Assembly: GCA_002279795.1 (NCBI GenBank)
Contig: NCCT01000004.1
Coordinates: 1-32,776, forward strand
Origin: Hydrogenophilales bacterium 12-61-10
Lineage (GTDB): Bacteria; Pseudomonadota; Gammaproteobacteria; Burkholderiales; Thiobacillaceae
Direction: 5' to 3'
Length of the DNA stretch: 32,776 nt
Each line of letters opens with the position of its first letter. Position 1 is the stretch's first letter. The position numbers were made by a program, and so were the translations under genes. Under the pieces are notes generated by a model. That model ran no database searches. It saw only the letters and a list, made by a program, of their open reading frames with translations, and was not told the DNA's origin. Shown here in pieces: positions 8,154-32,776 of the stretch.

Positions 8154-8162
8154 GGCGTCTTC

Positions 8163-11765: not shown

Positions 11766-11791
11766 GTTTGTTTTCTCGTTCAATGTCTTTA

Positions 11792-12969: not shown

Positions 12970-13873
12970 GCTGATTTTCCTTGTTGTCTTGCCGCAGATA
13001 GCCCGGGGCTAAGGCGAGGTTCTGGATGCCGTAAAGGGCAGGGGTGTTGCGCAGCCACAATTGATATTCAGGTCCGCGCAAGCTGTGGTCGGGAGACGCG
13101 TCAACATTCCATAGCCGAAGCAGATAACCCGTCATCGCTGCCCTGACTTGGACGTAACCACATCCATTCTTCATACCTAAGTCAGATTCGATCGCATCAG
13201 GAAAGCGAATGTTGTCCGGGTGGGGCACCAGCTCGAGTTCCACAATCCGGCTCCATTGAATGTCGCGTTCCGGGCCTTCTTCCTCGTGCGCGAGCTCATC
13301 CAGTGGTTTGGCTGAAGATATCCGGGTCAAAGAAAAGTCTCGAAACTGTCCAGATTTGCGATCGAATGCCCGCACATGCCAACGCCAGCCGCTGTCGGCA
13401 AGTGCGAAAGGCGCGATGACACGCTCCGACTTGCCGCTCGTAAGCGAGCAGTAGCGAATTTTGAGCAGAGACCGCTTGTGGATAGCCCGGGAGATCGCTG
13501 CGAGCGCATCCATATCGGGCTTTGAAATGAATGGCGTGAGCTCGGAAGGGACGTAACCCCGTTGTCTGACGGGAACGCCATCGCCGAAGCCTTGGCTTAG
13601 CCAGGTCAGAACCCGCTCGGCGGGGAAATCAAAGAGTGGCTTGAACTTGGAGCCAAGCAGATAGCACTTGCGCGAGGAGTCGAAGTCCAGGTTATTTGGC
13701 GCAAGCAGGCGATATGCCGCGAAATCACGCGTGGCAGCAGCCTCTTGGATCGTGAAGCGGTCCAGCAAGTCTTGCCGACGACACTCGCCGAGAAATCGCA
13801 CGCGCATCTCGATATACGCAAGCCGTTCCCTTTGAGTCGCCGGAATATCTTCCAGTGCCATGGGCCGATTCAA
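12956..13873 (-). CDS. brxR: WYL-domain transcriptional regulator, BrxR-like
   Basis: About 300 residues. The N-terminal part (about 10-90) is a predicted winged helix (YIEMRVRFLGECRRQDLLDRF). A WYL-type ligand-sensing domain follows around 140-210 (LLKIRYCSLTSGKSERVIAP, then WRWHVRAFD), with a C-terminal extension. This matches BrxR, the autorepressor placed first in many BREX operons. The TTG at 13873 has AGGGGG six bases upstream; an alternative ATG at 13861 lies too far from that site, so I favour TTG with modest confidence. The gene overlaps brxA by 14 bases. A large inverted repeat about 40-90 bases upstream is the likely operator. The ligand is unknown. Confidence 0.88.
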   Translation of the reverse strand: MNRPMALEDIPATQRERLAYIEMRVRFLGECRRQDLLDRFTIQEAAATRDFAAYRLLAPNNLDFDSSRKCYLLGSKFKPLFDFPAERVLTWLSQGFGDGVPVRQRGYVPSELTPFISKPDMDALAAISRAIHKRSLLKIRYCSLTSGKSERVIAPFALADSGWRWHVRAFDRKSGQFRDFSLTRISSAKPLDELAHEEEGPERDIQWSRIVELELVPHPDNIRFPDAIESDLGMKNGCGYVQVRAAMTGYLLRLWNVDASPDHSLRGPEYQLWLRNTPALYGIQNLALAPGYLRQDNKENQHGDV

Positions 13874-13910
13874 TCGACTCCCCCTTTTATCTTTGGTATC
13901 AGAACTACCA

Positions 13911-13965
13911 GATCAAAATACCACATTTACACGATCATTATGATGACGTAATGTGGATTTTGATC
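13911..13965. promoter_or_regulatory. Large inverted repeat upstream of brxR, candidate BrxR operator
   Basis: The left arm at 13911-13927 reads gatcaaaataccacatt and the right arm at 13950-13965 reads aatgtggattttgatc. They are reverse complements apart from one extra base in the left arm. The 22-base spacer contains a smaller palindrome around atcattatgat. On the minus strand the left arm contains TGGTATTTT, an extended -10 shape (TG-n-TATTTT), so a bound repressor would cover the promoter of brxR. BrxR homologues are known to bind inverted repeats ahead of their own gene. The symmetry is seen directly; the operator role is inferred. Confidence 0.65.
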
Positions 13966-13983
13966 CTTACCAACTACAAACAG

Positions 13984-14010
13984 TAAGGGCCTCAATGACA
14001 GAGGCCCTTA
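13984..14010 (-). terminator. Hairpin between gyrB and the BREX operon, possible terminator
   Basis: taagggcctc and gaggccctta form a perfect 10-bp stem with a 7-base loop (aatgaca). On the minus strand the stem is followed by CTGTTTGTAG, only weakly T-rich. It could stop transcription leaving gyrB before the brxR promoter. It lies about 140 bases after the gyrB stop. Confidence 0.55.
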
Positions 14011-14069
14011 AGGGATCGGCGATAAGTTCAGAAACTGCTTCGTTGCTAGGCAAACAGCCCATTCATTGC

Positions 14070-14150
14070 AGTGCCACTTATTCCGTAAATCCAGTGCCAC
14101 AAGATTGCTTCTAGTGACACTATTTCCGTTTACTTACAAGATCCTACACA
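14070..14150. repeat. Three spaced repeats and a TGT end at the gyrB stop codon, candidate transposon end
   Basis: The motif agtg(c/a)cac occurs at 14070, 14093 and 14113, spaced 23 and 20 bases. The first and third copies agree over 21 bases at 15 positions, sharing the continuation ttccgt; the middle copy keeps only the 8-base core. Read on the minus strand, the array begins TGTGTAGG at 14150, one base from the gyrB stop. Tandem transposase-binding repeats behind a TGT terminus are typical of Tn7/Tn5053-type ends. No such transposase is in the window. The repeats are seen; the transposon reading is inference. Confidence 0.45.
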
Positions 14151-14151
14151 A

Positions 14152-16677
<2,526 letters not shown>

Positions 16678-16705
16678 TTAAACGTCTGGTTCGGCGCCGG
16701 TTAAT

Positions 16706-17809
16706 TTAAATGCGCATGGGCATCACGACATATTTGAAACCGGGTTCGCCTTCGCTGGTGAGCAGCATGCTGCTGTTGGCATCGCCCAGCGACAGGGTGA
16801 TTTCTTCGCTGTTGACTGCGCCCAGGCCATCCAGCAGGTAGGTGACGTTGAACCCCATGTCGAGTGGCTCGCCCGTGAAGCTGACCTCGATTTCGTCGGC
16901 CGCCTCTTCCTGCTCGTTGTTGTTGCACACGATGCCCAATGTGTTTTCGCTCATCACCAGACGGACGCCGCGAAATTTTTCATTCGACAAAATGGCCGCG
17001 CGCTGCAGAGCCTGAATCACGGTCTGGCGATTGGCCTTGAGGTGACGCGGCTGATTGACCGGAATGACGCGCTGGTAATCGGGAAACTTGCCGTCCACCA
17101 CCTTGGTGACCAGTTCGGTACCCGGCAGCGTAATGGTGACTTGATTGGCGCCGATTCTGAGTTCGACCGCATCGTCGACATCGGCCAGCAACTTGGACAG
17201 CTCGACCACGGTTTTGCGCGGAATGATGATTTCGCGCGTGCCCGCATCCATGTCGAGCTCAGTCTCGGCGTAACTCAGGCGATGACCGTCGGTTGCCACT
17301 ACACGCAATTGCTTGCCTTCGAGCACTAGCAGCATGCCGTTGAGGTAATAGCGGATGTCCTGGCTTGCCATGGCGAACTGCACCAGCTGCAGCAGGCGCT
17401 TGAGCTTTCTTTGTGGCAAATGAATGGCTTCGCCCAAGCCGGATCCGGTTTCAACGCGGGGAAAATCGGCTGCCGGTAAAGTTTGCAGGGTGAAGCGTGA
17501 TTTACCTGCGCTCACCACCACCTGGCTGTCCTTGGTGTCGAGCTTGACTTTGGCTGAATCGGGCAATGCGCGAACAATATCAAACAGCTTGCGGGCTGCG
17601 ATGGTGATCGCAAAGTCCTCGCCCGCCTGTGCGTCGAGCTGGGTGCTGATCTGCAATTCGAGATCGGTGGCCAGCAAGGTGAGCTTGCCGGCCTTTTTTT
17701 CCAGCAGCAGGTTGGACAGGATGGGCAGGGTGTGACGACGCTCGACAACCCCAACTACAGAAGTCAGTGCTGCAAGCAGTGCGTTACGTTCGCTTTGTAT
17801 TAATAGCAT
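16706..17809 (-). CDS. dnaN: DNA polymerase III beta subunit (sliding clamp)
   Basis: A 367-residue protein that forms the ring-shaped processivity clamp of the replicative polymerase. The start MLLIQSERNALLAALTSVVG, the segment RRHTLPILSNLLLE and the C-terminal tail ending YVVMPMRI are family hallmarks. The C-terminal PMRL-like motif lines the partner-binding cleft used by clamp-binding proteins. Length is normal. The gene lies 179 bases after dnaA, across the probable origin, and 76 bases before gyrB. Confidence 0.98.
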   Translation of the reverse strand: MLLIQSERNALLAALTSVVGVVERRHTLPILSNLLLEKKAGKLTLLATDLELQISTQLDAQAGEDFAITIAARKLFDIVRALPDSAKVKLDTKDSQVVVSAGKSRFTLQTLPAADFPRVETGSGLGEAIHLPQRKLKRLLQLVQFAMASQDIRYYLNGMLLVLEGKQLRVVATDGHRLSYAETELDMDAGTREIIIPRKTVVELSKLLADVDDAVELRIGANQVTITLPGTELVTKVVDGKFPDYQRVIPVNQPRHLKANRQTVIQALQRAAILSNEKFRGVRLVMSENTLGIVCNNNEQEEAADEIEVSFTGEPLDMGFNVTYLLDGLGAVNSEEITLSLGDANSSMLLTSEGEPGFKYVVMPMRI

Positions 17810-17988
17810 TTATATATTCCTGAGAACAATAATAAAGGCAGCCTAAATCTGGGGATAAGCCTTATTACTCAATTAAAACAGTTTGTTACCGGTCATTTTT
17901 GGGTGTTGGTAAGACCTTGGCAGCGCTGTCTGTTTGTGGACAAATTTGATGCTTTTGGTTTTTGACCTGTTTTATCCACATTTCATCC
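17810..17988. other. dnaA-dnaN intergenic region with DnaA boxes, probable oriC
   Basis: A perfect DnaA box, ttatccaca, lies at 17972-17980. Two one-mismatch boxes on the other strand lie at 17935-17943 (tgtggacaa) and 17850-17858 (tggggataa). The stretch from 17810 to 17890 is AT-rich (tttatatattc, aataataaagg, aattaaaaca) and could be the unwinding element. Position between dnaA and dnaN is common for bacterial origins. The number of boxes is modest, and a further perfect box lies on the other side of dnaA, so the origin could be bipartite. Confidence 0.6.
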
Positions 17989-19335
17989 TCAGCCTGTCAG
18001 GATTTGTAACAAGGTCAAATAGTCACGCCCGATATCAACCTCGGTTTCACGTAATTCAGCGACTTTTCGGCATGCATGAATGACGGTCGTATGGTCGCGC
18101 CCGCCAAACGATTCGCCGATTTCCGGCAGGCTCTGGTTGGTCAGTTCCTTGGATAGTGCCATCGCGATTTGACGTGGCCGGGCCAGATTGCGGGTTCTTT
18201 TTTTGGAAAACATGTCAGCGACCTTGATTTTATAAAAGTCGGAGACGGTTTTCTGGATGTTTTCGATGGAGACGATCCGCGACGTCGAGGCGATGAGGTC
18301 GCGCAGGGCTTCCTTGACCAGTTCCAGGGTGATGGGCTTTTCATGAAAGCGCGAGAACGCGATCACGCGCTTGAGCGCGCCTTCCAGTTCGCGCACATTG
18401 GAACGCACTTGCTTGGCGATGAAAAAAGCCACCGTTTCATCGAGCTTTGTGTTTTCAGATTGTGCCTTGGCCAACAGGATGGCGACCCGCATTTCAAGTT
18501 CAGGCGGTTCGACAGCGACTGTCAAACCCCATGCAAAACGCGATTTCAGTCGGTCATCCAGCCCGTTGATTTCCTTGGGGAACGTGTCGCAGGTGATGAC
18601 GATCTGTTTCTTGTTTTCGATCAGGGAATTGAAAACATAGAAAAACTCTTCCTGGGTACGGTCCTTCTTGGCCAGAAACTGAATATCGTCGATCAGCAGC
18701 AGATCCAGCGACATATAGCGCCGCTTGAGATCATCGAACTGCTTGTTGAGATACGCTTTAACCACATCGTCCACATAATCATTGGCGTGGATGTAGCTGA
18801 TGCGCGCGTCCGGGTTGGCTTCGCGCACCGTATTGCCGATGGCCTGCAGCAAGTGGGTTTTTCCCAGGCCGACGCCGCCATAAACAAACAAAGGATTGTA
18901 GGCAGCCCCCGGATTATTGGAGATTTGCAAGGCAGCCGCGCGGGCCAGCTGGTTGGCGCGCCCCGAAACAAAATTATCAAAATTGAACGCGGGATTGATG
19001 CGCATGCCCGATTGAACAGGCGCCACGACGGCGCGCTCGGGTTGCGACGATCGCGGTTCGATGTGAGACGTGGAAGCGGGCGGGCGGCTTGCAGCAGGCT
19101 TTTTTCCGAGCGCATACACAATGGAAACCGGCTCCGGATAAAACTCCAGCGCCCACTCATTGATAGGCTCGGCGAATTTTTCACGCACCCAGTCCATTAC
19201 AAAATGGTTGGGCGCAAGAATGCGTACCTCCCCGTTCGAGTCATCGAACACCAGGGGTTTGATCCATGTGCTGAATTGCTGCTGGGTGAGGGTGGCGCGA
19301 AAGCGCTCTTGGCAAATGTCCCAGAAGGAATCCAT
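17989..19335 (-). CDS. dnaA: Chromosomal replication initiator protein DnaA
   Basis: About 448 residues. DnaA binds DnaA boxes and opens the origin. Domain I starts MDSFWDICQERFRATLTQQQFSTWIKPL, a linker follows, then the AAA+ domain with Walker A GGVGLGKT (about 153-160) and Walker B LLIDDIQF. The C-terminal DNA-binding domain carries the GGRDHTTVIHA signature. I chose the ATG at 19335 because it gives the family N-terminus; an in-frame ATG at 19365 would add ten residues. Neither has a good ribosome-binding site. It is divergent from rpmH, the usual arrangement. Confidence 0.97.
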   Translation of the reverse strand: MDSFWDICQERFRATLTQQQFSTWIKPLVFDDSNGEVRILAPNHFVMDWVREKFAEPINEWALEFYPEPVSIVYALGKKPAASRPPASTSHIEPRSSQPERAVVAPVQSGMRINPAFNFDNFVSGRANQLARAAALQISNNPGAAYNPLFVYGGVGLGKTHLLQAIGNTVREANPDARISYIHANDYVDDVVKAYLNKQFDDLKRRYMSLDLLLIDDIQFLAKKDRTQEEFFYVFNSLIENKKQIVITCDTFPKEINGLDDRLKSRFAWGLTVAVEPPELEMRVAILLAKAQSENTKLDETVAFFIAKQVRSNVRELEGALKRVIAFSRFHEKPITLELVKEALRDLIASTSRIVSIENIQKTVSDFYKIKVADMFSKKRTRNLARPRQIAMALSKELTNQSLPEIGESFGGRDHTTVIHACRKVAELRETEVDIGRDYLTLLQILTG

Positions 19336-19402
19336 AGTAGGGAGGCGGGGAGCGGATAGCGGCATAGGATTCGAGGCCGAATCTTACTCCCCTTCGATGA
19401 GG

Positions 19403-19411
19403 TTATCCACA
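19403..19411 (+). promoter_or_regulatory. Perfect DnaA box between dnaA and rpmH
   Basis: ttatccaca on the + strand matches the DnaA-box consensus exactly. It lies 68 bases upstream of the chosen dnaA start, so it could serve dnaA autoregulation or be part of the origin. Confidence 0.7.
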
Positions 19412-19442
19412 GGCGGGACGGCAGGCCGTCAAACACAGGAAC

Positions 19443-19472
19443 TTGACATGCCTTGGTAAAGGCAGGTCTAAT
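19443..19472 (+). promoter_or_regulatory. Probable rpmH promoter
   Basis: TTGACA at 19443-19448 and TCTAAT at 19467-19472 are separated by 18 bases, close to the sigma-70 consensus. The spacer holds a small inverted repeat, tgcctt and aaggca. The start codon of rpmH lies about 85 bases downstream. Confidence 0.65.
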
Positions 19473-19557
19473 GCGCGGTTTTTCAACACATTTTTTTGTG
19501 ATTGGCCCGGCCTGTCAAGCAGGAATGCGGTCAGCGCTACTCTGGAAAGGACAAGAC

Positions 19558-19692
19558 ATGAAACGTACTTATCAACCCTCTACCGTTCGTCGCAAGCGTA
19601 CGCACGGCTTTCGTGCCCGCATGAAAACCAAATCGGGCCGTGCCGTCATCAATGCACGTCGTGCCAAAGGCCGCGCACGTCTGGCCGTCTAA
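19558..19692 (+). CDS. rpmH: 50S ribosomal protein L34
   Basis: A complete 44-residue L34, starting [18 protein letters not shown] and ending AKGRARLAV. It is a small, very basic protein of the large ribosomal subunit. AAGGA lies about 7 bases before the ATG. It heads the rpmH-rnpA-yidC-mnmE gene series and is divergent from dnaA. A good promoter lies upstream at 19443-19472. Confidence 0.98.
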
Positions 19693-19719
19693 CTAATCGA
19701 CACGCATCCTGAAAAGGCT

Positions 19720-19735
19720 GGAAGCGTTCGCTTCC
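19720..19735. repeat. Perfect short palindrome inside the 5' part of rnpA
   Basis: ggaagcg and cgcttcc form a 7-bp inverted repeat separated by two bases. It falls 28 bases after the rpmH stop, where the rnpA start signals would be expected. The two-base loop is too short for a good RNA hairpin unless inner pairs open. Confidence 0.4.
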
Positions 19736-19812
19736 ACGACGCGCGGCTGGTCAATAAAGCCGACTTTGACCGGGTTTTTGCCGAAAATCAGCGCGCTCGA
19801 ACCGATTTTGTA

Positions 19813-20112
19813 ATGGTCATGGTGCGCCCCAATCAGGTGGGACACCCGCGTTTGGGCATGATTGTGGCCAAACGCCTGCTTGCACGTGCGGTCGACCGCA
19901 ATCGTGTCAAGCGATGCATACGCGAAAGCTTCCGGCAGGTTCTGCCGGAACTGCCCGCCTGTGATTTTGTGGTTCGTTTGATCGCCAGGCCGGTTCCCGG
20001 CGATGAAGCGCGCGACTTGTCGCGCACCTTTAAACGTGCCGGTCATCGTGCCATGGCAAAATGGCCAGGCGCACGAGCAGCCGATCCTTCGCCCGATCTC
20101 CTCCCCACTTAA
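19813..20112 (+). CDS. rnpA: Ribonuclease P protein component (start uncertain)
   Basis: RnpA is the protein partner of the RNase P ribozyme that trims tRNA 5' ends. The RNR motif region ARAVDRNRVKRCIRESFR is clear, as is the preceding GHPRLGMIVAKR. The ATG at 19813 is the first standard start in frame, but family-like sequence continues upstream in the same frame, from about 19729: RFHDARLVNKADFDRVFAENQ. Between the rpmH stop at 19692 and 19813 no ATG, GTG or TTG exists in that frame. The real start may be a rare codon such as ATC at 19696, or a sequence error may hide it. The protein overlaps nothing; yidC begins 17 bases after its stop. Confidence 0.85.
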   Translation: MVMVRPNQVGHPRLGMIVAKRLLARAVDRNRVKRCIRESFRQVLPELPACDFVVRLIARPVPGDEARDLSRTFKRAGHRAMAKWPGARAADPSPDLLPT

Positions 20113-20129
20113 AAACGACACTCCGCCCC

Positions 20130-21764
20130 ATGGATAATCAGCGACTGATTTTATTTATCGTCTTTTCCTTTTCGCTGCTGTTGTTGTGGGAAGCCTGGCA
20201 GGACAAAAATGCACCGGCACCGTTGCCCCCGAGTGCGATGAGTACACCCGCCGGCCAGGCGGTGCCGACACCCAGTCAGGCATTGAATGCTTCTGCACCG
20301 ACGCCTGCTCAGGCCGGGTTTGCCAAAGGCCAGCGCGCCGTGGTTGAAACCGATGTGCTGCACGCGGTCATCGATGCGAATGGCGGCGATTTGCGCCAGC
20401 TACAGTTGCTGCCCTATCGTGAAACGGACGACAGGAATCAGGTGTTTACGCTGTTCGAAGACAACCAGACCACGCCTTACATGGCGCAAAGCGGTCTGAT
20501 TGGCAAAAACCTGCCCACGCACCGCAGCCTGTTCCAGCTCAATCCCGGGACCTACCGACTGGCCGGAGGCGCCACGCAACTGGAAGTGCCGTTGACCTGG
20601 ACCGACCCGGTTACCGGTGTGCGGGTCGAGAAAACCTATGTTTTCAAGCGCGGCAGTTACGAGATTGCCGTCAGGATGCGGGTCATCAACGGGGGCACGC
20701 AGCCTGTCGATCTCACACCTTATTATCAATTGTCGCGTCATGGCGAGCCGCCACGCGGATCGCAGTTCTTCTTGCCGACCTATACCGGCGCAGCGGTTTA
20801 TACCGATGCCAAAAAATTCCAGAAAGTCGCGTTCGACAAGATCGCTGAAAACAAGGCCGAGTTCGAGAAAAACGCCGACAACGGCTGGGTCGGCATCGTA
20901 CAGCATCATTTCGTTGCGGCCTGGTTGCCCGAAGGCACGATCAAGCGCGAGTTTTATGCGCGCTCAGCCGATGGCATTTATTCCGCCGGCGTGATTCTCG
21001 CCGAAGGCCTGCTTGCGCCCGGGCAGCAAAAAACCTTCACCGTACCGCTGTATGCAGGTCCGCAAACCCAGACCGTGCTGGAACAAACCGCACCTGGTCT
21101 CGATCTGGCCCGGGACTATGGCTGGCTGACGCCGCTTGCTTTCCCCATCTTCTGGGCGCTGGACAAGATCGAGCGCATCGTCGGAAACTGGGGCTGGGCC
21201 ATCATCATTCTGACCATTTTCCTTAAACTGGCCCTGTATCCGCTGTCAGCCGCCGGCTACAAGTCGATGGCCAAAATGAAAACGCTGACGCCGCGCCTGC
21301 AAAAGCTGAAGGAAAACTACGGCGATGACCGCGCCAAGCTGCATCAGGCCATGGCCGACATGTACAAGACTGAGAAAATCAATCCGCTCGGCGGCTGTCT
21401 GCCCATCCTGATCCAGATTCCGGTCTTCATCGCCCTTTACTGGGTGTTGCTGGCCGCCGTCGAAATGCGCGGCGCACCCTGGCTTGGCTGGATTACCGAC
21501 CTGACCGCCCCGGATCCGCTTTATATCCTGCCTATCATCATGGGCATCACCTCGGTTCTGCAGGTCAAGTTGAACCCGCAACCGATGGACCCGATGCAGG
21601 CCAAGATCATGATGATCATGCCGGTAATGTTTACCGTCATGTTCGTGTTCTTCCCGTCGGGCCTGGTGCTGTACTGGGTGGTCAACAACATCCTGTCGAT
21701 CGCGCAGCAGTGGTGGATCAACAAGCAAGTCGAGGGCAGCAAGCCTGCGCCAGCCAAAGCCTGA
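20130..21764 (+). CDS. yidC: Membrane protein insertase YidC
   Basis: A 544-residue YidC of the gram-negative type, which inserts and folds proteins in the inner membrane alone or with Sec. The first membrane segment is at residues 5-21 (LILFIVFSFSLLLLWEA). A large periplasmic domain follows to about residue 345, then the conserved core starting near WAIIILTIFLKLALYPLS, with the cytoplasmic loop KLKENYGDDRAKLHQAMADMY and further membrane segments. The start MDNQRLILF is usual. It follows rnpA by 17 bases with no yidD between. A strong palindrome 46 bases after the stop is its likely terminator. Confidence 0.98.
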   Translation: MDNQRLILFIVFSFSLLLLWEAWQDKNAPAPLPPSAMSTPAGQAVPTPSQALNASAPTPAQAGFAKGQRAVVETDVLHAVIDANGGDLRQLQLLPYRETDDRNQVFTLFEDNQTTPYMAQSGLIGKNLPTHRSLFQLNPGTYRLAGGATQLEVPLTWTDPVTGVRVEKTYVFKRGSYEIAVRMRVINGGTQPVDLTPYYQLSRHGEPPRGSQFFLPTYTGAAVYTDAKKFQKVAFDKIAENKAEFEKNADNGWVGIVQHHFVAAWLPEGTIKREFYARSADGIYSAGVILAEGLLAPGQQKTFTVPLYAGPQTQTVLEQTAPGLDLARDYGWLTPLAFPIFWALDKIERIVGNWGWAIIILTIFLKLALYPLSAAGYKSMAKMKTLTPRLQKLKENYGDDRAKLHQAMADMYKTEKINPLGGCLPILIQIPVFIALYWVLLAAVEMRGAPWLGWITDLTAPDPLYILPIIMGITSVLQVKLNPQPMDPMQAKIMMIMPVMFTVMFVFFPSGLVLYWVVNNILSIAQQWWINKQVEGSKPAPAKA

Positions 21765-21810
21765 CGCAGGTGCTTGAGTCCGTGCTTTAAATCGTTGTTG
21801 TCATTCAAGG

Positions 21811-21828
21811 CCCGATGCATGCATCGGG
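21811..21828 (+). terminator. Terminator-like hairpin after yidC
   Basis: cccgatgca and tgcatcggg form a perfect 18-base palindrome, followed by tctttccattt. It lies between yidC and mnmE and would end the rpmH-rnpA-yidC transcript. The T-tract is broken by C residues, so termination may be partial. Confidence 0.65.
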
Positions 21829-21884
21829 TCTTTCCATTTGTGGCACTGTAAGGTCTTTGTCCTTCCGCCATTTTGAAACGAGCC

Positions 21885-23219
21885 ATGCGCAACTTGCCAA
21901 CCCCCGATCTGATTGCCGCCATTGCCACCGCCCCTGGGCGTGGCGGGGTGGGGGTCGTGCGGGTATCGGGGGCGGATGTTGCCGTACTGGCGGTTGCAAT
22001 GCTCGGTCGGGTGCCCGCACCGCGTCATGCGACCTTCACGCGTTTTCTCGACGCCGATGGCTCGACGCTCGATGAGGGCATTGCGCTGCTGTTTGCGGCA
22101 CCGCATTCCTTTACCGGCGAGGCCGTGCTGGAGCTGCAGGGGCATGGCGGACCGGTGGTGCTCAATCTGATTCTGCAGCGCTGCATCGAGCTCGGCGCGC
22201 GTCTGGCCGGGCCAGGCGAGTTCACGCGGCGTGCGTACCTCAACGGCAAGCTGGATCTGGCACAGGCGGAGGCGGTGGCCGATCTGATCGACGCTGCGTC
22301 GACCGAGGCGGCGCGCTCGGCGGTGCGTTCGCTGTCGGGCGCGTTTTCGGCGCGGGTGCACGAGCTGCTGGACGCGCTGACGCGGCTGCGCATGCTGGTG
22401 GAGGCGACGCTGGATTTTCCCGACGAGGAAATCGATTTTTTGAAACAGGCCGATGCGTTCGGGCGGCTCGATCGCATCGAGGCGGCGTTGGCGGGTGTGC
22501 GCAGCCAGGCGCGCCAGGGTGCGCTGCTGCGCGAAGGCTTGACGGTGGTGCTGATCGGCCAGCCGAACGTGGGCAAGTCGAGCTTGCTGAACCAGCTGGC
22601 CGGGTTCGAGGCGGCGATCGTGACCGAGATTGCCGGCACCACGCGCGACACGGTGCGCGAGGCGATCCAGATTCAGGGCGTGCCGCTGCACATCATCGAC
22701 ACGGCGGGCTTGCGCGAAACCGACGACGCGGTGGAAAAAATAGGCATCGCGCGCACCTGGGCGGCGCTGGACCAGGCCGACGTGGCGCTGCTGCTGGTCG
22801 ATGCGGCACATGGCGTGGGCGCAGACGAGCGGGCGATTCTGGCGCGCTTGCCCGCCGTGGCGCGGCTGACCCTGCACAACAAGATCGACGCCACGCACGA
22901 AGCGCCGCGCGCCACGGCCGATGAGATCTGGCTGTCTGCCAAAACCGGCGCCGGCGTCGAGATGCTGCGTGAAAAGCTGCTGGCGGCGGCGGGCTGGCAG
23001 GCGGCGGGCGAGGGCGCATTCATGGCGCGTGCGCGCCATCTCGATGCGCTGCAGCGCGCCGCGGCGCATGTGACGGCTGCGTGCGGTGCCGTCAGCCAGC
23101 TGGAGCTGTTTGCCGAGGAGCTCCGACTGGCGCAGGCGGCGCTGGCCGAGATCACGGGTGAATTCACGGCGGACGATTTGCTGGGCGAGATTTTCAGCAA
23201 ATTCTGTATCGGCAAATAA
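21885..23219 (+). CDS. mnmE: tRNA uridine-5-carboxymethylaminomethyl modification GTPase MnmE
   Basis: A 444-residue MnmE (TrmE), which with MnmG modifies the wobble uridine of certain tRNAs. The N-terminal domain begins [22 protein letters not shown], which binds the folate cofactor. The G domain sits inside the helical domain: G1 GQPNVGKS (225-232), G2 GTTRDT, G3 DTAGLRET and G4 NKID. The C-terminus ends FCIGK, with the catalytic Cys of the family. I chose ATG 21885; a TTG at 21873 in frame is less likely. It lies downstream of yidC, the common order. Confidence 0.97.
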
Positions 23220-23256
23220 ACCGGTCTGGCCGCGCGATGCGGTCTACTCCACTTTC

Positions 23257-25041
23257 ATGGGCGACGCTTTCATGCTGACCTGGCAATCGATCTACGCCGA
23301 AATCCGCACCTATCGAAGCCGTCTCGCGCAGGCCAATTTCATCGCGTTGCTGGCGGTGATGGCGGCGGTGCCGGTGCCGCTGTTGCTGCCCTTGATGGTC
23401 GACGAGGTGCTGCTGCAGCACCCCGCCGGCTTCGTCGCCCGCATTGCGGGCTGGACGCCGGCTGCCTGGCACGGGCCGGTGCTGTTCATTGGTGCAGCGC
23501 TGCTGTTGACGGTGGTGCTGCGGCTGGCTTCGATCCTGCTGAATGTGTGGCAGGGGCGAACGTTTTCGCTGCTGGCGAAGGCGGTGGTCTACCGTATCCG
23601 GGTGCAGATGCTGAACCGGCTGTCGAAGATTGCGCTGTCGGAATTTGAAACGGTGGGCGCCGGGCGCGTGACCTCGCACTTCGTGACCGACCTCAACGCG
23701 ATCGACAGCTTTCTTGGCGCGTCGATATCCGGCCTGGTGGTGTCGGTGCTCACGCTCATCGGCGTGGCAGCGGTGTTGTTCTGGATGCACTGGCAGCTGG
23801 CGCTGTTCATCCTGTTGCTCAATCCGCTGGTGATCCTGTTTTCCACCCGGCTCGGCAAGCGGGTCAAGGACCTGAAGAAATACGAGAACCGCGCGTTCGA
23901 AGTATTTCAGGATGCGCTCGCCGAAACGCTCGACGCGCTGACGCAAATTCGCGCGATGAACCGCGAGAAGCATTACCTTGCGCGCGTCACCGAGCGCGCG
24001 GCCGATATCCGCCGGCATGCCGCCGCATTCGCCTGGAAATCGGACGCGATGAGCCGGATTTCCTTCTTCGTTTTTCTGGCGGGGTTCGATGTTTTTCGCG
24101 CGCTGGCGATGCTGATGGTGGTGTATTCCAATCTCAGCATCGGCGAGATGCTGGCGGTGTTCGGCTACCTGTGGTTCATGATGACGCCGGTGCAGGAACT
24201 GGTGAACATGCAGTATTCGTGGTTTGCCGCCCATGCAGCGCTGGGGCGGATCAACGCGCTGCTCGGCTTGAAGGACGAACCCGCTCACCCGGCGCGGCTG
24301 AATCCCTTTGCGGGCCGGTTGACGGTTGGCGTAACGCTGCGGCACGTGAGCTTTTCCTACGAGGAAAACGGCGAGAGCGTGCTCGACGACGTCAGCCTCG
24401 CGGTTGCACCGGGCGAGAAAGTCGCGCTGGTAGGGGCGTCGGGTGGCGGCAAGTCGACGCTGGTGCAGGCCTTGCTGGGCTTGTATCCGGTGAAAGCCGG
24501 GCAGATTGCGTATGGCGATGCGCCGGTCACCGACATCGGCTGGGAGACGGTGCGCGAGCATGTGGGGGTGGTGTTGCAGCACCCGGTTTTGTTCAACGAC
24601 AGTGTCCGCGCCAATCTCACGCTCGGCCGCGAGGCGGACGATGCCACGCTGTGGCAGGCGCTGGACATCGCACAGATGAAAGACGTGATAGCCAGCCTGC
24701 CGCACGGGCTCGACACGATGGTGGGACGGCAGGGCGTGCGGCTGTCGGGCGGCCAGCGGCAACGCCTGGCCATTGCGCGGATGATCGTCGCCAACCCGCG
24801 CATCGTGATTCTCGACGAAGCCACCTCGGCGCTCGACAGCGCCACCGAGCACCAGCTGCATCAGGCAATGCACGCGTTTCTGGCCGGCCGCACCACGCTC
24901 ATCATTGCGCACCGGTTATCCGCAGTGCGCGAGGCCGACCGCATTCTGGTATTTGAAAATGGCCGCGTGGTGGAGGAAGGCGGGCACGACGAACTGATCG
25001 AGCGCGGCGGCTTGTATCGCAAGCTGTATCAGCCGGCCTGA
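23257..25041 (+). CDS. MsbA-like ABC exporter (fused membrane and ATPase domains)
   Basis: About 594 residues. The N-terminal half holds about six membrane segments of the type I exporter fold (for example FIALLAVMAAVPVPLLLPLMV and GLVVSVLTLIGVAAVLFWM). The C-terminal ATPase has Walker A GASGGGKST (about 393-401), signature LSGGQ (496-500), Walker B IVILDEA (516-522) and H-loop IIAHRLS. Such half-transporters work as homodimers and export lipids, drugs or peptides; the substrate cannot be read from sequence. The start is uncertain between ATG 23257 and ATG 23272, both with weak ribosome-binding sites. It begins 37 bases after mnmE and may be cotranscribed with it. Confidence 0.9.
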   Translation: MGDAFMLTWQSIYAEIRTYRSRLAQANFIALLAVMAAVPVPLLLPLMVDEVLLQHPAGFVARIAGWTPAAWHGPVLFIGAALLLTVVLRLASILLNVWQGRTFSLLAKAVVYRIRVQMLNRLSKIALSEFETVGAGRVTSHFVTDLNAIDSFLGASISGLVVSVLTLIGVAAVLFWMHWQLALFILLLNPLVILFSTRLGKRVKDLKKYENRAFEVFQDALAETLDALTQIRAMNREKHYLARVTERAADIRRHAAAFAWKSDAMSRISFFVFLAGFDVFRALAMLMVVYSNLSIGEMLAVFGYLWFMMTPVQELVNMQYSWFAAHAALGRINALLGLKDEPAHPARLNPFAGRLTVGVTLRHVSFSYEENGESVLDDVSLAVAPGEKVALVGASGGGKSTLVQALLGLYPVKAGQIAYGDAPVTDIGWETVREHVGVVLQHPVLFNDSVRANLTLGREADDATLWQALDIAQMKDVIASLPHGLDTMVGRQGVRLSGGQRQRLAIARMIVANPRIVILDEATSALDSATEHQLHQAMHAFLAGRTTLIIAHRLSAVREADRILVFENGRVVEEGGHDELIERGGLYRKLYQPA

Positions 25042-25114
25042 CCTGGATTTCGGGGTTGCAGTCGCGGCCTGTTGCCGGCGGTTAAAAAGCCGTCACAAAA
25101 TCAGTGTTTTCTGA

Positions 25115-25431
25115 TATACTGCGCAGCGTTGTGCATACAGCAAGTGGGCAGGCAAAGTTTAACTGCCGTGCCTCGGGACTGTTCTCACAGCCCCATCGTC
25201 TTCGACCTCTCTTTTGTACTGTTCGCACCTTGCGGGCAGTGACAAGTCTTGTGGTTGGCGCCGATGTGATCGACGCGACCCGTGGGCGTTCATGGATTGA
25301 TCCTTCAGGATTCAGCCATCCAAACGCCGCTTCTATATCCGGTTCGTATATTTGACCTGTCTGGTTTCGGACGGGTCTGGATAGCGCGTTTTTGTGGCCT
25401 ATGGCCGGTGCGCTCATTAAAAAGGTTAGTC
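25115..25431 (+). promoter_or_regulatory. Long 5' leader of the DEAD-box helicase gene, with probable promoter
   Basis: The 390 bases between the ABC exporter and the helicase hold no convincing gene. A -10-like TGATATACT occurs at 25112-25120 with a weak -35 (gtcaca, 25092-25097). If used, it leaves a leader of about 300 bases before the ATG at 25432. Long leaders are known on cold-induced RNA-helicase and cold-shock genes, where they control translation or decay. The promoter and the leader role are inferred. Confidence 0.4.
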
Positions 25432-27054
25432 ATGCAATTTTCCGATCTGGGTCTTGACCCCATCATCCTCAATGCTGTTTCAGGCGCCGGTTACACGACC
25501 GCTACGCCGGTGCAACAGCTCGCCATTCCCGCTGCCATGAACGGCAGCGATTTGCTGGTGTCGTCGCACACCGGCAGCGGCAAGACCGCTGCGTTCCTGC
25601 TGCCGTCGTTGCAGCGTCTGCTGACCGAATCGCCCAGCAAGAGCATCGGCCCGCGCGTGCTGGTGTTGACCCCGACGCGTGAACTGGCGCTGCAGGTTGA
25701 AAAGGCCGCGATCACTTACGGTAGCGGGCTGCGCCGTTTCCGCACCGCCTGCCTGGTGGGTGGCGCACCGTATGGCCTGCAGCTCAAGCGTTTGAGCCAG
25801 CCGGTTGACGTGGTGGTGGCGACGCCCGGTCGTCTGATCGATCACCTGGAGCGCGGCAAGATCGACTTTTCGCGCATTGAAGTGCTGGTGCTGGACGAAG
25901 CCGACCGCATGCTCGACATGGGTTTTGTCGACGACATCCAGGCTATCGCCAAGCGCTGCCCGACCGATCGTCAGACGCTGCTGTTTTCGGCCACGCTCGA
26001 CGGCGTGGTGGGCAACCTGGCGCGTGAACTGACGCGCAACGCCGAGCGCATCGAAATCGCGGCCGTTCCGCATACCGAATCCAAAATCGAACAGCGCCTG
26101 CTGTACACCGACAACATGGACCACAAACAGCGTCTGCTGGATGCCCTGTTGCGCGATGTCGACATGACGCAGGCCATCGTGTTCGCTGCCACCAAGCGCA
26201 GTGCAGAAGAGCTGTCCGACATGCTGTCCGAAAGCGGCTTTGCTTCGGATTCGCTGCACGGCGATATGCAGCAGAGCGCGCGCAACCGTTCGCTGCAGCG
26301 CCTGCGTGAAGGCCGTACCAAGGTGCTGGTCGCGACTGACGTCGCCGCACGCGGCATCGACGTCGCCGGCATCAGCCATGTGATCAACTTCGACCTGCCG
26401 CGTCAGGCCGAAGACTACGTGCACCGCATCGGCCGTACCGGTCGTGCCGGCCGCACCGGTATCGCAGTGAGCTTTGCCGGCATGCGCGAAGGCGGTCTGG
26501 TGAAAAACATCGAGCGCTATACCGGCAACCGGATCGAAATTCACACCCTGCCGGGTCTGGAGCCGCAGCAGCGTCCGCAGAGCGGAGGGGGTCGTCCGGC
26601 TGGCAATGGTCGTCCGCGCACCAGCAACGGCGGCAATCGCAGCACCGGCGGTTTTGGTGAAAAACGCAGCTTTGGCGGCGGCGAGCGCAATCACTCGGCG
26701 GGCGGCTACGGCGCGCCACGCAACGAAGGTGCGCCGCGTGCGTACGGCGATCGTCCGCCGCGTGGCGACAGCCAGGACAACCGTGATCGTGGTGCACGCA
26801 GCGAGCGCCCCGCAGGCGATCGTCCGCGTTCGGATGCGCCTCCGCGTGGCAATCGTTTCGATAACGCTGCGCGTGGCTCGTTCGACAAGGCGCCGCGCAC
26901 CTTTGCGCCGCGTGAAGGCAACCGTCTCGAACCTGAGCGCGCACCGCGTCCCGATGTCGACGGCAACAGCGTCGAGTACTGGAAAAAGCGCGAGACCGAA
27001 GCCAAGGCGCGGCCCCAGGCGCGTGCCTATGGCGACCGTCCTGCGCGCAGCGCA
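25432..27054 (+). CDS. rhlE: DEAD-box RNA helicase, RhlE type, C-terminus lost at the junction
   Basis: An ATP-dependent RNA helicase. The Q motif region is GYTTATPVQQLAIP, followed by motif I SHTGSGKT (45-52), Ia PTRELALQ, II DEAD (155-158), III SAT, V TDVAARGID and VI HRIGRTGR (331-338). A tail of over 170 residues is rich in Arg, Gly, Asn and Pro and repeats AYGDRP; such tails bind RNA. About 541 codons are native. After about position 27,054 the frame runs on to 27264 in unrelated sequence that is the back of another gene, so the true C-terminus is missing. I chose ATG 25432 since MQFSDLGLDPIIL is the family start. The rhlE name is by similarity; a DeaD/CsdA-like relative is possible. Confidence 0.88.
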
Positions 27055-27059
27055 AACCA

Positions 27060-29129
27060 GTCAGAGAGCACGAGACCCTTCACAGGCCTCGCCAGCATCA
27101 TCCACAGATTCTCCTTCAAAATGGCGGGAGCCATGCTGATCCGCTGCATCGGCGAGACACGATCCTGCTGCAGGATGGATTCTGCTGTGCTCTCAGCGCC
27201 CAAGGGAGCGACCTGCCCACGCTCCCAGCTCAGCGGCAGCATGCCAAAGACTCCCATCTCATGACCATGCGCAGCTCTCATGGCGAACTGCTGGTCCATA
27301 CAAAGGCCCGCCATGAGCGGATCGCGCGAGTCCATGCTCTGATCGCCAATATTCATGACGGCGCTGAAGGCACCCGCCTTGGAAGGCTGACGCACCGATG
27401 GATGGTGCATGACCCAGGTCTCAGCACGATCCTGCTTACGCCTCTCGTAGGAACGATACCAAGCTTCATTCACAGCCTTCCAGCCGTTGCCCTCAGACCA
27501 AAACCACCGGTAATATTTCAAGATCGGATGCTCGTCCGGTATCATGCGGTCCTTTGGAAAGCCGGGCAGCTTTTGCCAATCCACCGCATCGCCCTGAACA
27601 TCGGCGGGTATTTCCTGCCCGCTGAATTTGCGGTAGGCGTCAGCCTCCGGCGTACTGAAACCCGGCTGCGTCCCTACACGTGCCGACGAGCCCAGCAAGA
27701 CCCCGGTCCAAGCGTTGCTGTATCTGTAATAAAGCGTGAACATATTTCCACACGCCCCCATAAGATTGGCCGCCTCAGGGTGGGCTGCGTTGATCTCAGG
27801 TGGAGAGTACTCATTACCATCTCGACCCACTTTGCGGAAGCCCCGGCTGAGCATCAGCGGGGCATAATCAAGCGCCGCAACAGAACGAAGCCCCGAAAGC
27901 AGACCCGCTTCGAGTTTGGGCCTCACCACCAGTGGTCGGGATTTATTGGCGGTGCCCAGATAGGGAGCGTCATCACTGCTGATGCCTGCCCAATAGGTGC
28001 AGGCCAGCGGCTGCAACTGGGGTAAATCAGACTCAGCCGCGCCGTCCATGACCACCGGTAGCATCTGGCTGCGTCTGCCCACGATCTGATACTCCAGCAT
28101 GCGGCTGACGCGATTGCTGCCCTTGCCCATAACCACCTCCAGGGTGTAAGTTCCAAGCTTGAGCGAAGTGTCAGGTCCGAACTCATTCACATTGGCGGCT
28201 CCAGGTGCCAGATCGGGGAAAATGAACGTCTGCTCCATGCCATCGGTAATGAACGTCATGTTGGCTCCACTCAGAGGCTGTGTGCGCAGATTGGTGCAGG
28301 TGATCTTCATCGGCCACGGGCGCTCCATCCGCTCCCACACGTGCGAGGTGCTGTTGATCTCCAGGGCAAACGCGGCAAACCCACGCACACCAGAGCATAA
28401 GCGCACCTCGTCAATGACGCCCGTGAAGGCTGCTGCGCCTCCAAGGGTGCTGCCAAAGCAGAGCGGCTGCCCGCCTGGCTGCACTGCCCCGCAGCGCTCG
28501 ACAAACGCCTCGCCCACACACTGTGAATCGGCATAGAAGACCACTCTGCCAGCAGCATCATAGGTGAAAGACAGATGCCGCCACACATCCACAGGCAGCG
28601 CCAATGGCTCCGAAACAAACTCTTTAACATACGATCCAAAACCAAGCCTGACCACCATCTGCCGCAGGCCACGCTCATTCGCCGGGAGCAGGTTCCAGCA
28701 GAAATCCTCCATATGTGTTCCCTGCTTGTCCAACAGGCAGGCTGTTTGCTGCAGCGGTGAGTTGCCGGAAAGCTTCACCCACATTTCGGCCGAAAAGGCC
28801 CCCTGCGGTGAATAGTGTGGCTTGGCCACAGCCAGCCTAGTGTCTGCACCGCACCTGAGTCCGCCACCAAAGCGCCCGTCCGGAACCAGATTCGCCCGGT
28901 TCAGCGCCAGTTGCGCTCCATGCCCGGAAGCATCTGCCAGCGGCAGTTCGTCAAACTTCCAGCAGCCCAGCACATGCAGCCCGGTGGCATCCAGATTGGC
29001 GTAGCTTTCCTCCCAAGGGTCTTGCAACGGCAGCGCTCCGTGCGCGCTGAGGCAGACCCCGACGAGGACCAGATGAGGCAGAATGGCAAAGCGGAGGCAC
29101 ATGGGACGCGAGGCAAGCAATGCTTTCAC
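27060..29129 (-). CDS. Secreted protein with LamG/concanavalin-like domain, 3' end lost at the junction
   Basis: About 690 residues remain. A signal peptide is at the N-terminus (LPHLVLVGVCLSAHGA). Residues about 57-250 look like a LamG/concanavalin A-like lectin domain: GCWKFDE, FSAEMWVKLSG, WRHLSFTYDAAGRVVFYADS and VIDEVRLCSG. A beta-rich middle part and a C-terminal part with FWSEGNGWKAVNEAWYRSYERRK follow, which might be a glycosidase-like barrel; I cannot name it. The last residues before the stop at 27027 come from the DEAD-box helicase region, so the end is not native. Its ATG overlaps the stop of the beta-helix gene (ATGA), so the two are cotranscribed. The style is that of Verrucomicrobia/Planctomycetes polysaccharide-related proteins. 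Confidence 0.65.
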
Positions 29130-30514
29130 TGGGCTCCCAGATTGCGCTGTCCCTCTGCAGGCAGATCCTCCATCTGCTGATGGCGAATATAACGCCGCAG
29201 CACTGTAGGCAGTCCTGCAGGCAGATCAGAAGCGGCACCAAAGCAAGGCGACATCGAAGCAAGGGTGAAATCCTGATCTTTCAATGACACAAAGCCTGGA
29301 TCAGCCCCCTGTTCGGAAGCAGCCAGCGTTTCAATTTTCCCAGTGAACTCGTCCACACTGGGCACCCAGCCCTGGGTGAGCCAGTTTTTGCCGAGTTTCA
29401 GCAGACCCAACTTGCACATCAGGGACAGGAATTTTCCTTTTGAAGATGCGTGCAGGACGTTGCTAAAACACTCTACCGTCTCCTCTTCCGAAGACAAACG
29501 AAACAGCGCAATGGGCTGGCTTCGCGTGGAGACAACTGTGTTGTGGTAGAAGTAAAGGACGCCTTTGCGATACCCGGCGGTCTTCCCGCTGTCGCCGCCA
29601 TAGTGAACGATCTGATTGTTTCCGTCCCCCTCGCGCTCGATGATCACATTCCCATAGACATGGGTCTGGCGGTAGGCCGGGGAAGCGTTGAGCACGGGGT
29701 TTCCGGTGGCATCCACCAGATCAAGCTGTCGGTTGCCGCCCTCGATCCAGTTATAGGATACAACCAGCCCTGCGGAGCGGTCTTTGAGATTGTTCCCAGC
29801 ACATCCTTCCCGCAGCGGTCCAAAGTGATTCCCCTCAAAGACGATGCCATCGCACTCCGTATAAGCATTATGCTCGGTGATGGTACCCGGATTGCCATTG
29901 TCGTAGAGGTGGCAGCGCTCCACCCGCACACTCTTAGATTTCGCGCTGACCATGAGACCGTTGCTGCTGTCATGCAAAACAAGGTTGCGCAGCACCAAAT
30001 GGTCCACGATCTCCACATGCACACTGGCGGCATCCTTGCTGTAGGCGGTGACCCCACGTCGGCCTTTGAAAGTGAAGGGAGCCCTGCCACCGCGAATGTC
30101 TAGGTTCTCCAAAACAAGGTGCCCGGGAATTGCCACAGCCGTCGCATTGGAGCCGCCAATCTTCACGACGCCGCGCTCCTGGCCCCAGTAGTTCAACTGC
30201 GCATGCGTCGTTGCATCCTGACCGTCGATCACCGGCAGTTGCCCTTCCGGTCCAGGCACGCCACTTATGATGATCGGCTTTGCCTCGGTGCCGCGACAGC
30301 TCAGCACCCACTTTTCATGGTAGGGTTGTGCCCGCCAGTGAATGCGCACCACATCCCCGGCAGCCAATTTCTCCCAAGGCACCGACCCGATGTCAGCAAA
30401 CCCCTTGGGCGAACCGACATCATAGACCGCCGCCTCCACCCAATCGGCAGCCAGCAAGCCTCCTGAAAAAGCAATCAACCGGAGGAAACTGGGGAGGCAA
30501 TCCAAGGGACGCAT
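29126..30514 (-). CDS. Secreted right-handed parallel beta-helix protein (pectate-lyase fold)
   Basis: About 462 residues. The chosen ATG at 30514 gives MRPLDCLPSFLRLIAFSGGLLAADWVEA, a signal peptide; an upstream in-frame start at 30580 is less likely. The body has repeated strands of the beta-helix kind: HLVLENLDIRGG, HLVLRNLVLHDSSNGLMVSA, SVRVERCHLYDN and GIVFEGNHFGP. This fold occurs in polysaccharide lyases, but no catalytic residues could be identified with confidence. It overlaps the LamG protein gene by 4 bases, so both are probably secreted together for carbohydrate work. Substrate unknown. Confidence 0.7.
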   Translation of the reverse strand: MRPLDCLPSFLRLIAFSGGLLAADWVEAAVYDVGSPKGFADIGSVPWEKLAAGDVVRIHWRAQPYHEKWVLSCRGTEAKPIIISGVPGPEGQLPVIDGQDATTHAQLNYWGQERGVVKIGGSNATAVAIPGHLVLENLDIRGGRAPFTFKGRRGVTAYSKDAASVHVEIVDHLVLRNLVLHDSSNGLMVSAKSKSVRVERCHLYDNGNPGTITEHNAYTECDGIVFEGNHFGPLREGCAGNNLKDRSAGLVVSYNWIEGGNRQLDLVDATGNPVLNASPAYRQTHVYGNVIIEREGDGNNQIVHYGGDSGKTAGYRKGVLYFYHNTVVSTRSQPIALFRLSSEEETVECFSNVLHASSKGKFLSLMCKLGLLKLGKNWLTQGWVPSVDEFTGKIETLAASEQGADPGFVSLKDQDFTLASMSPCFGAASDLPAGLPTVLRRYIRHQQMEDLPAEGQRNLGAQ

Positions 30515-30869
30515 GATTTTGGTTGGGTGTGAGCTGCAAGGACCATGAATTGTCCGGTGCAGGCACTCTTTTGCCAGCAAAATATCCGTGGATCAGGGAA
30601 ACCAGACGTTTTTGATGCAAGCATCTTTCTAATTACCTCTGCGGCACCTTGCACGTGCCTTTCACAATTTGAAACCTGAGGCCATGAGTTTCTCATCTCA
30701 TGGAAGGGATTCGTTGGTTGGTCCTTGGCCCAGAAACGTACAGCACTTCAATGCCTGACGTGGACGCAGGCTAAAAGCGCATAGATTTTGAGGCACGCCG
30801 TTGGAAGAACGTTCACGCAGAGACGCAACGCCCGTGCGGAGTTCAATCCTCCTGGAAACTGCCAGCCGC
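30515..30869. other. Intergenic stretch without a recognisable gene
   Basis: No convincing ORF, RNA gene or repeat is seen in these 355 bases. The promoter of the minus-strand two-gene operon should lie here, but I could not identify it. Confidence 0.5.
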
Positions 30870-31097
30870 TTATTTCGACACGTCCTTTTTCTTCACCGGG
30901 TAGGAGCCGGGAGATTTGGCGAATTTTTGCATGCAGTCCACACAGCAGAAGGAAACAAAGCCTTCATCCGTCTTCACCCGATAGATCGGACGCGAGGCTT
31001 TGTGGTCCACCGGGCATTCATCATTGATGGGCCAAGCGGCGAATACGGTGGCGGTCATGGCTAGACTAAGCAGCAAAGGAGCGAGAAGCGTTTTCAT
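30870..31097 (-). CDS. Small secreted YHS-like domain protein
   Basis: A 75-residue protein. The ATG at 31097 gives MKTLLAPLLLSLAMTATVFAA, a signal peptide. The mature part has four Cys (28, 51, 52, 55) in CPVDHK and SFCCVDCMQKF, ending in KSPGSYP, which resembles YHS-type metal-binding domains. It may bind a metal ion in the periplasm. It lies divergent from the permease pair; whether they share a function is not known. Confidence in the family is moderate because the domain is short. Confidence 0.65.
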   Translation of the reverse strand: MKTLLAPLLLSLAMTATVFAAWPINDECPVDHKASRPIYRVKTDEGFVSFCCVDCMQKFAKSPGSYPVKKKDVSK

Positions 31098-31515
31098 GGA
31101 TGGAGTCGAGTTGGAGTTGGTGCGCGTTACCTCATCAACGTACCTGCACCCCATCCTCATAGGCCATCGCAAATCCTGCTCACGGATGCGCAAGGCAGGC
31201 ACAATGCGGCTCTATTTTTGCTCGATGTCGAGGATCGGTGGTGGCGGTCCGTCAAACAGCTTGCTCAAATCAAATTCCCCATTGCAGCCCCCCCAGCGCT
31301 GTTTCGAACGCTCATTCATGCACCATTCCACCATAACCGCCACCCAAAGGCAATCTCATTTCTGAATTCCGATGTCCCTCCGTTCCTTTTATCGCAGCGC
31401 CGGCTACGTATTCGTCATTCGACATTCCGCATTCGTCATTCCACATTCCACTTCCCCGTTCTTTCCCGCTTGAACCCGCCTTCTCGTCGCGTTTAGACAT
31501 TTCTACACCAACCAC
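31098..31515. other. Intergenic region between the YHS-like gene and the permease
   Basis: No convincing gene is seen in these 418 bases. It should carry divergent promoters for the YHS-like gene and the permease. It contains a CATTC-rich tandem repeat at 31410-31451. Confidence 0.5.
31410..31451. repeat. Two-copy 21-bp CATTC-rich tandem repeat
   Basis: Two 21-base units, both starting attcgtcattc, agree at 19 of 21 positions. Similar cattcgtcattc strings are common between genes in Verrucomicrobia and Planctomycetes, from my memory of such genomes. Confidence 0.65.
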
Positions 31516-32502
31516 ATGATTTTTCTAGCCGATCTGCCCGCACCCAGCCGCATGGGGGACATCCTCATGGCCTTCCTGAGTATTGTCTTCGAAGGCGCTC
31601 CCTACATTCTCATCGGTACGATTTTTTCCGGAATTATTGATGCCTTCCTACCAGCCAAGCTGCTGGACCGGGTGCTCCCGAAGAACAAGGTGCTGGCGAC
31701 GCTGATCGCGGGATTCCTCGGGCTGGTGTTTCCGGTGTGCGAGTGCGCGGTGGTGCCGGTGATCCGGCGTCTGGTGCAAAAGGGCCTGCCTCTGTCCTGT
31801 GCGGTGACGTACATGCTTTCGGCACCGATTATGAACCCCATCGTGGCTATCAGCACACTGACGGCGTTCAAGGAGTTCCAGGGCCTGACCTGGGCCACAG
31901 CGGGCAATGCGACGATGACGATCGCACGTCTTTCGCTCGGCTACCTCGTGGCGGTGATCGTCGGTCTCGTCGTGCTGCGCTTCAAACCGGGCCAGGTGCT
32001 GCGTGCCAGCATCGCCAACAAGATCGCCAATACTGATGCGGCTGCTGACGATCATGTCCACGCGCCTGCCGCCAGCTTCAATGGCAAACTGGTGCATGCC
32101 ATGCGTAGTTCCATGCGCGATTTCCTCGACACAGCGATGTATTTCGCCATCGGCGTGGTGATCACCTCAGTTTTCAATACGCAGATCAACCAGTCCCTGT
32201 TGAACACCGTGGCGGGCAACGACTGGCTGGCCATCCCTTCGCTCATGGGGCTGGCCATCGTGCTCTCCCTCTGCAGCACCTCGGACGCCTTCATCGCCGC
32301 GCCGATGACCGCTTTCTCCATGGCCGCCAAGCTGGCATTCCTAGTCTTCGGACCGATGATGGACATCAAGCTCCTGTTCATGTACTCCAGCGTCTTCCAG
32401 CGCAAGGTGGTCGTATCTTTCCTGATCGGACTTTTCATCCTCATCGGCCTGCTCTCCGGGCCATGGATGAGCTTGGTTCAACATCTATCCATCAAACCCT
32501 AA
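31516..32502 (+). CDS. YraQ/DUF318-type permease
   Basis: A 328-residue integral membrane protein with about eight membrane segments in two blocks separated by a hydrophilic, His-containing loop near residues 175-195 (ADDHVHAPAA). Family marks are the Cys pair in FPVCECAVVPVIRRL (Cys75, Cys77) and the second-half motif LCSTSDAFIAAPM. Members are called permeases but their substrate is mostly unproven; metal or oxyanion transport is suspected. It is followed six bases later by the TIGR03943-type partner, the usual pairing. No good ribosome-binding site is seen before the ATG. Confidence 0.85.
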   Translation: MIFLADLPAPSRMGDILMAFLSIVFEGAPYILIGTIFSGIIDAFLPAKLLDRVLPKNKVLATLIAGFLGLVFPVCECAVVPVIRRLVQKGLPLSCAVTYMLSAPIMNPIVAISTLTAFKEFQGLTWATAGNATMTIARLSLGYLVAVIVGLVVLRFKPGQVLRASIANKIANTDAAADDHVHAPAASFNGKLVHAMRSSMRDFLDTAMYFAIGVVITSVFNTQINQSLLNTVAGNDWLAIPSLMGLAIVLSLCSTSDAFIAAPMTAFSMAAKLAFLVFGPMMDIKLLFMYSSVFQRKVVVSFLIGLFILIGLLSGPWMSLVQHLSIKP

Positions 32503-32508
32503 ATCGCC

Positions 32509-32776
32509 ATGAGTGGAACCCGCACCCTCGTTCATCTTCTCAGTGTCGCCATGCTCTTGCTCTGGGGCGGCGTGATGCTGTACTTCTACATCAGCGGTCG
32601 TCTGACGAACTACCTGCCGCCGGACGGCATCTTCCGCCCCATGGTGCTCGTGTCCGGCATCGGTCTCGCCGTGCTGGGCCTCTTCAATCTGCTGACCATG
32701 GGAGCCGAGGACGCGGGCTGCGAAGGCCATGATCACGGTCACTCGCACGATGATCACGACCACGAGGATTGCGGTC
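32509..32776 (+). CDS. TIGR03943/DUF1980-type partner of the permease, N-terminal part (partial)
   Basis: Only 89 codons are in the window. Two membrane segments (LLSVAMLLLWGGVMLYFYI and MVLVSGIGLAVLGLFNLLTM) are followed by a His/Asp-rich stretch, GHDHGHSHDDHDHEDC, likely to bind a metal such as zinc. The pattern fits the TIGR03943 family, which is regularly encoded next to YraQ-type permeases. The gene starts six bases after the permease stop and runs off the right edge. Confidence 0.75.
   Translation, partial: MSGTRTLVHLLSVAMLLLWGGVMLYFYISGRLTNYLPPDGIFRPMVLVSGIGLAVLGLFNLLTMGAEDAGCEGHDHGHSHDDHDHEDCG

Follow-up and report, generated by a model that had tools for sequence, protein, structure and literature searches.

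Metagenome assemblies can contain interspecies chimeric contigs, and shared k-mers are one way in which such contigs can arise (PMC7299287). The contig described here has much in common with the chimeras described in that review, namely two genomes on one contig, an abrupt change of both closest relative and composition, and a short joint sequence that is compatible with both genomes (PMC7299287). It differs from them in that the chimeras treated there mainly involve closely related species with shared k-mers, whereas here different phyla meet at a short word (PMC7299287). We conclude that the contig is almost certainly an interspecies assembly chimera joined at about position 27,050, and that the two broken genes at this point are very probably an artefact rather than a biological event. 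One piece is from the genome's own betaproteobacterial-type chromosome, ending inside the 3' end of rhlE; the other is from a Prosthecobacter-like bacterium, starting inside a gene for a LamG protein; and the two would have been joined via a shared word of about 14-20 bases. The second bacterium was presumably present in the same sample, and the join was presumably made by software, not by a cell.

The window, by which we mean the whole stretch of DNA that was analysed, is the entire contig C17 (32,776 bases). It belongs to a 3.02 Mb genome in 160 contigs, with a completeness of 99.56% and a contamination of 5.02%, figures that suggest a metagenome bin. The features on either side of the joint are as follows.

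14152..27058, host-side segment with gyrB, dnaN and dnaA on the minus strand and rnpA, yidC, mnmE, an ABC transporter and the 5' part of rhlE on the plus strand (collinearity with G019:C112; Pfam)
25282..27058, plus strand, truncated RhlE-type DEAD-box helicase, start codon uncertain (Pfam DEAD and Helicase_C; full-length relatives in G019 and G018)
27045..27058, junction, 14 bases fitting both sources, or up to about 20 if 27,039-27,058 is taken (comparison with G019 and L014)
27045..29129, minus strand, truncated LamG protein (Pfam Laminin_G_3; relatives at L014-L016)
29126..30580, minus strand, probable right-handed beta-helix protein, adjoining LamG as in Verrucomicrobiaceae (match to L014-L016; Pfam Beta_helix at E 1e-4, which is below the curated cut-off)
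30868..32776, further Verrucomicrobiaceae DNA (matches to G041, G042 and G043 on the contigs of their LamG locus; Pfam)
within 30868..32776, minus strand, 110-aa open reading frame with no family match
within 30868..32776, plus strand, ArsP-type permease (Pfam ArsP_1)
within 30868..32776, plus strand, first part of a DUF1980 gene that is truncated at the end of the contig (Pfam DUF1980)

The original prediction held that two opposing genes are both truncated at one point within 27040..27070. Both open reading frames were found as described, and comparison with relatives fixed the breakpoint at 27,045-27,058, inside that interval. The DEAD-box/RhlE frame (25,282-27,264, plus strand) and the LamG frame (27,027-29,129, minus strand) each enter the antisense of the other. 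The plus-strand frame encodes DEAD and Helicase_C domains (Pfam) followed by a low-complexity tail; its name, RhlE, is the one given in the original prediction, no family search having supplied it. With G019 as the reference, the helicase is without its last 30 residues, the window sequence reading ...PARSAN where G019 goes on for these 30 residues and ends in VRGRFKD. The minus-strand frame encodes a Laminin_G_3 domain (Pfam) and is short of about 380-390 C-terminal residues of a total of ~1,080, as judged from the four relatives with readable ends (L014, L015, L016 and L018), in which 378-391 residues follow the end of the alignment. Of the other two, L017 is cut off by its contig end, and the match to L019 stops at residue 504.

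The left side had been described as a betaproteobacterial oriC cluster. Pfam confirmed gyrB, dnaN, dnaA, rnpA, yidC, mnmE and the ABC transporter, and positions 14,148-27,058 are collinear with C112 of G019, a genome of the bin's own genus, with identities of 93.1, 95.0 and 96.0% in successive pieces. The left side thus belongs to that genus and carries the dnaA/dnaN/gyrB oriC cluster. A betaproteobacterial origin agrees with the best named GyrB match, although this was a weak test (Neisseria gonorrhoeae, 64%, in a plasmid collection). A protein search matched the helicase in 41 of 41 genomes, consisting of its own and 40 relatives. In 18 of the 24 same-genus genomes, a single piece of the rhlE match reaches query residue 581-603, the break in the window being at residue 592. 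The remaining six comprise three in which the helicase is partial or split across contigs (G007, G008 and G022) and three for which the list is headed by paralogue-level matches only, at 41-45% identity (G009, G012 and G021). The closest relative is lost abruptly at the joint: G019 shares 99% protein identity with the helicase over residues 1-594 and 96% DNA identity with the window over 24,001-27,058, with no match thereafter, and the DNA of G018 is 87% identical over 25,415-27,056, again with no match thereafter.

The genes to the right of the joint, which had been called Verrucomicrobia/Planctomycetes-style, belong to the Verrucomicrobiaceae according to the named records that match them. 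Eight stretches in the genome collection fit the LamG peptide pattern, and six of these encode a LamG relative, all of them in metagenome-assembled genomes titled Prosthecobacter (the best, at 78%), Verrucomicrobiaceae or Akkermansia. The LamG protein is 74-78% identical to its relatives at L014-L016, and the nucleotide match to these loci is unbroken from 27,039/27,045 to 30,609 (76-78%). Farther right, 30,868-31,229 and 31,423-32,776 match G041, G042 and G043 at 87-91%. In all three genomes compared, both halves of the right piece are found together on the contig that carries LamG, with order and orientation preserved, and the piece stays Verrucomicrobiaceae to the contig end, with no second host border seen in the window. 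Judged by these matches, the right piece is ordinary chromosomal DNA of Verrucomicrobiaceae that has been shortened at 30,609-30,868. At that place, the two halves are 12.9, 18.5 and 22.9 kb apart in the three relatives versus ~260 bases in the window. These ~260 bases match none of the relatives' intervals, except for 32 bases in G042 that are part of the next homologous block. The missing 13-23 kb could have been deleted naturally in the source, or another misjoin could lie here.

The same right-hand sequence was sought in the genus and in the rest of the genome. Among 56 genomes of the genus, its own included, the only LamG matches beyond the window were one in G008 and one in G063, each of 60 residues with 32% identity and an E value of about 5e-4, and none of the other 55 genomes holds a real LamG relative. 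When 34,972 bases of the Verrucomicrobiaceae neighbourhood (stretches of 19,971 and 15,001 bases) were compared with the window's genome, no contig besides C17 matched among the best 40 of 96 and the best 40 of 111 candidates. A plasmid origin of the LamG protein was also considered and set aside, as 72,556 plasmid records gave no match. As a separate observation, a short repeat of the ATTCGTCATTCGACATTCC type precedes the ArsP gene at 31410-31450; dozens of similar copies are found among the matches listed, in six Verrucomicrobiaceae-side genomes.

Each side of the contig thus has its own relatives, from a different organism and without interruption, and both sets are lost at one point. G019 is identical base for base over 26,995-27,058 and unrelated beyond, its identity in 20-base steps falling from 1.00 at 27,039-27,058 to 0.20 at 27,059-27,078. 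Identity to L014 in the same steps is 0.20-0.45 over 26,959-27,038, 0.75 at 27,039-27,058 and then 0.55-0.90 up to 27,278, so that the Verrucomicrobiaceae match starts at 27,045, or weakly from 27,039. The matching zones of the two sources therefore overlap by 14 bases and at most by about 20. Within 27,045-27,058, 14 of 14 bases equal G019 and 11 of 14 equal L014, although the true right-side source may differ from L014. In the LamG frame these 14 bases read F-A-L-R, as they do in L014-L016, and we infer that the word is shared exactly in the true right-side source.

A real event would also be expected to leave such a joint. In this alternative, illegitimate recombination would have inserted Verrucomicrobiaceae DNA by oriC and removed the 3' end and terminator of rhlE, and 14-20 bases of microhomology are what one would expect at its border. 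Illegitimate recombination needs neither a mobile-element signature nor presence in related genomes. Nevertheless, the surroundings offer it little: there are no direct or inverted repeats of at least 20 bases in 26,000-32,776, no tRNA in the window and no mobile-element families among the seven right-hand open reading frames searched with Pfam. The LamG gene is absent from the genus relatives searched, and the supposed insert is collinear with Verrucomicrobiaceae chromosome and breaks off inside a gene at the contig end.

Its composition is likewise Verrucomicrobiaceae-like, which also speaks against such an insertion. GC content, which the original prediction had proposed to compare across the joint, was not informative: it is 0.654 in the last kb before the joint and 0.595 after, and it discriminates poorly because this step lies within the spread of the left side (0.488-0.686). 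The proposed tetranucleotide comparison, in contrast, separates the two sides near the joint. We computed log-odds from third-order Markov models, using training stretches from the two groups without homology to the window. The log-odds change from +20.0 at 26,059-27,058 to -4.8 at 27,059-28,058, and 1-kb pieces are negative in 5 of 5 cases over 27,001-32,000 and positive in 15 of 15 over 12,001-27,000. Held-out 1-kb pieces were called correctly in 51 of 60 cases on the host side and in 63 of 63 for Verrucomicrobiaceae, pieces that are not independent, since orthologous stretches of relatives remained in the training set. Composition alone is weak evidence, however, because 6 of the first 13 1-kb pieces of the left side (mostly a BREX-type block) are also negative, that is, Verrucomicrobiaceae-like. 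Contig C101 of the same genome gave 11 positive pieces, but these are homologous to the training sequence.

C101 is where rhlE's natural neighbour apparently sits. When the G019 sequence 3' of rhlE was compared with the window's genome (best 40 of 277 candidates), it matched C17 to 27,058 and then C101. That contig (G000:C101) ends at 18,526, and the match begins at 18,524, which on the map of G019 is 186 bp past the break; the 186 bp skipped contain, in G019, the missing end of rhlE and its terminator hairpin. An intact rhlE allele is therefore something we infer, as C101 stops short of the breakpoint by these 186 bp. C101 could also be another strain's contig in a strain mixture, since its identity to G019 is lower than that of the window (87.2-89.1% towards this end of C101 and 93.6% over its first 3 kb, as against 93-96%).

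With both sources, the position, the short overlap and a native continuation elsewhere in the genome in hand, misassembly, which the original prediction had considered the simplest explanation, is the best one, being favoured by the presence of that continuation on another contig of the same genome. For a real insertion, the end of C101 could be the far border of the insert, the host having lost 186 bp; against this, the break then coincides with the very end of the contig that carries the native neighbour. Apart from the microhomology, nothing speaks for a real illegitimate insertion, and we consider it very improbable. A chimera formed before assembly, during amplification or library preparation, would presumably fit the microhomology joint equally well. 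Without amplification of the DNA, it is rare for one chimeric molecule to dominate an assembly, which counts against an origin before assembly, and we regard this as having next to no chance of being correct.

If the contig is an assembly chimera, as we conclude, then this species is credited with 5.7 kb of foreign DNA. These last 5.7 kb should be trimmed, and the LamG, beta-helix and ArsP genes are not attributable to this organism; it would be wrong to claim horizontal transfer, or the presence of these genes in the genus, on the basis of this contig. The search that located C101 also amounts to a cheap test that needs no reads, in which the native continuation of a truncated gene is sought at another contig end of the same genome.

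Beyond the joint, the relatives of rhlE hold a feature that the window is without. In 6 of 10 readable relatives, rhlE has an intrinsic terminator whose stem is a parS-like palindrome (GTTYCACGTGRAAC, then T's), located 27-33 bases past the stop codon (L003, L004, L006, L007, L011 and L012). Three others (L008, L009 and L013) have an ordinary hairpin at that place, and L010, which has a slightly different protein end, has no parS-like site in the locus. These loci are from a set of 11 rhlE loci in the 24 same-genus genomes, from which L005 was left out because it ends 50 bases past the stop. Owing to the joint, the window lacks this terminator site. Altogether, 11 parS-like sites were found in the 141 kb scanned versus 0.002 expected under uniform base frequencies, several of the 11 being orthologous. 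Among the papers listed in literature searches, none dealt with a parS site next to rhlE. From its sequence, the palindrome may be a putative site with a double role in ParB binding and transcription termination. If Verrucomicrobiaceae chromosomal DNA had really been inserted beside the origin across phyla, and very recently, this would have removed both the rhlE terminator and this parS-like site, an event to which we assign an extremely small probability.

At the other end of the host-side segment, a BREX-type defence block (1566-13873) adjoins gyrB near the dnaA cluster, at a place where the DNA of G019 differs. The block encodes BrxA, BrxB, BrxC, a BREX-1-type PglX, a WYL-domain protein and a helicase-like protein. 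The idea that the gyrB/BREX border (~14,148) is another chimeric joint was considered and rejected, as no contig end carries the continuation found in G019, unlike the case of rhlE. When the 7.8 kb next to gyrB on its far side in G019 were compared with the genome, the matches, besides gyrB, were confined to two short stretches inside C48 (82,404 bases), both located near 32 kb, one of 346 bases at 75% and one of 156-157 bases at 70%. Judged against G019, the BREX block is probably an ordinary variable island.
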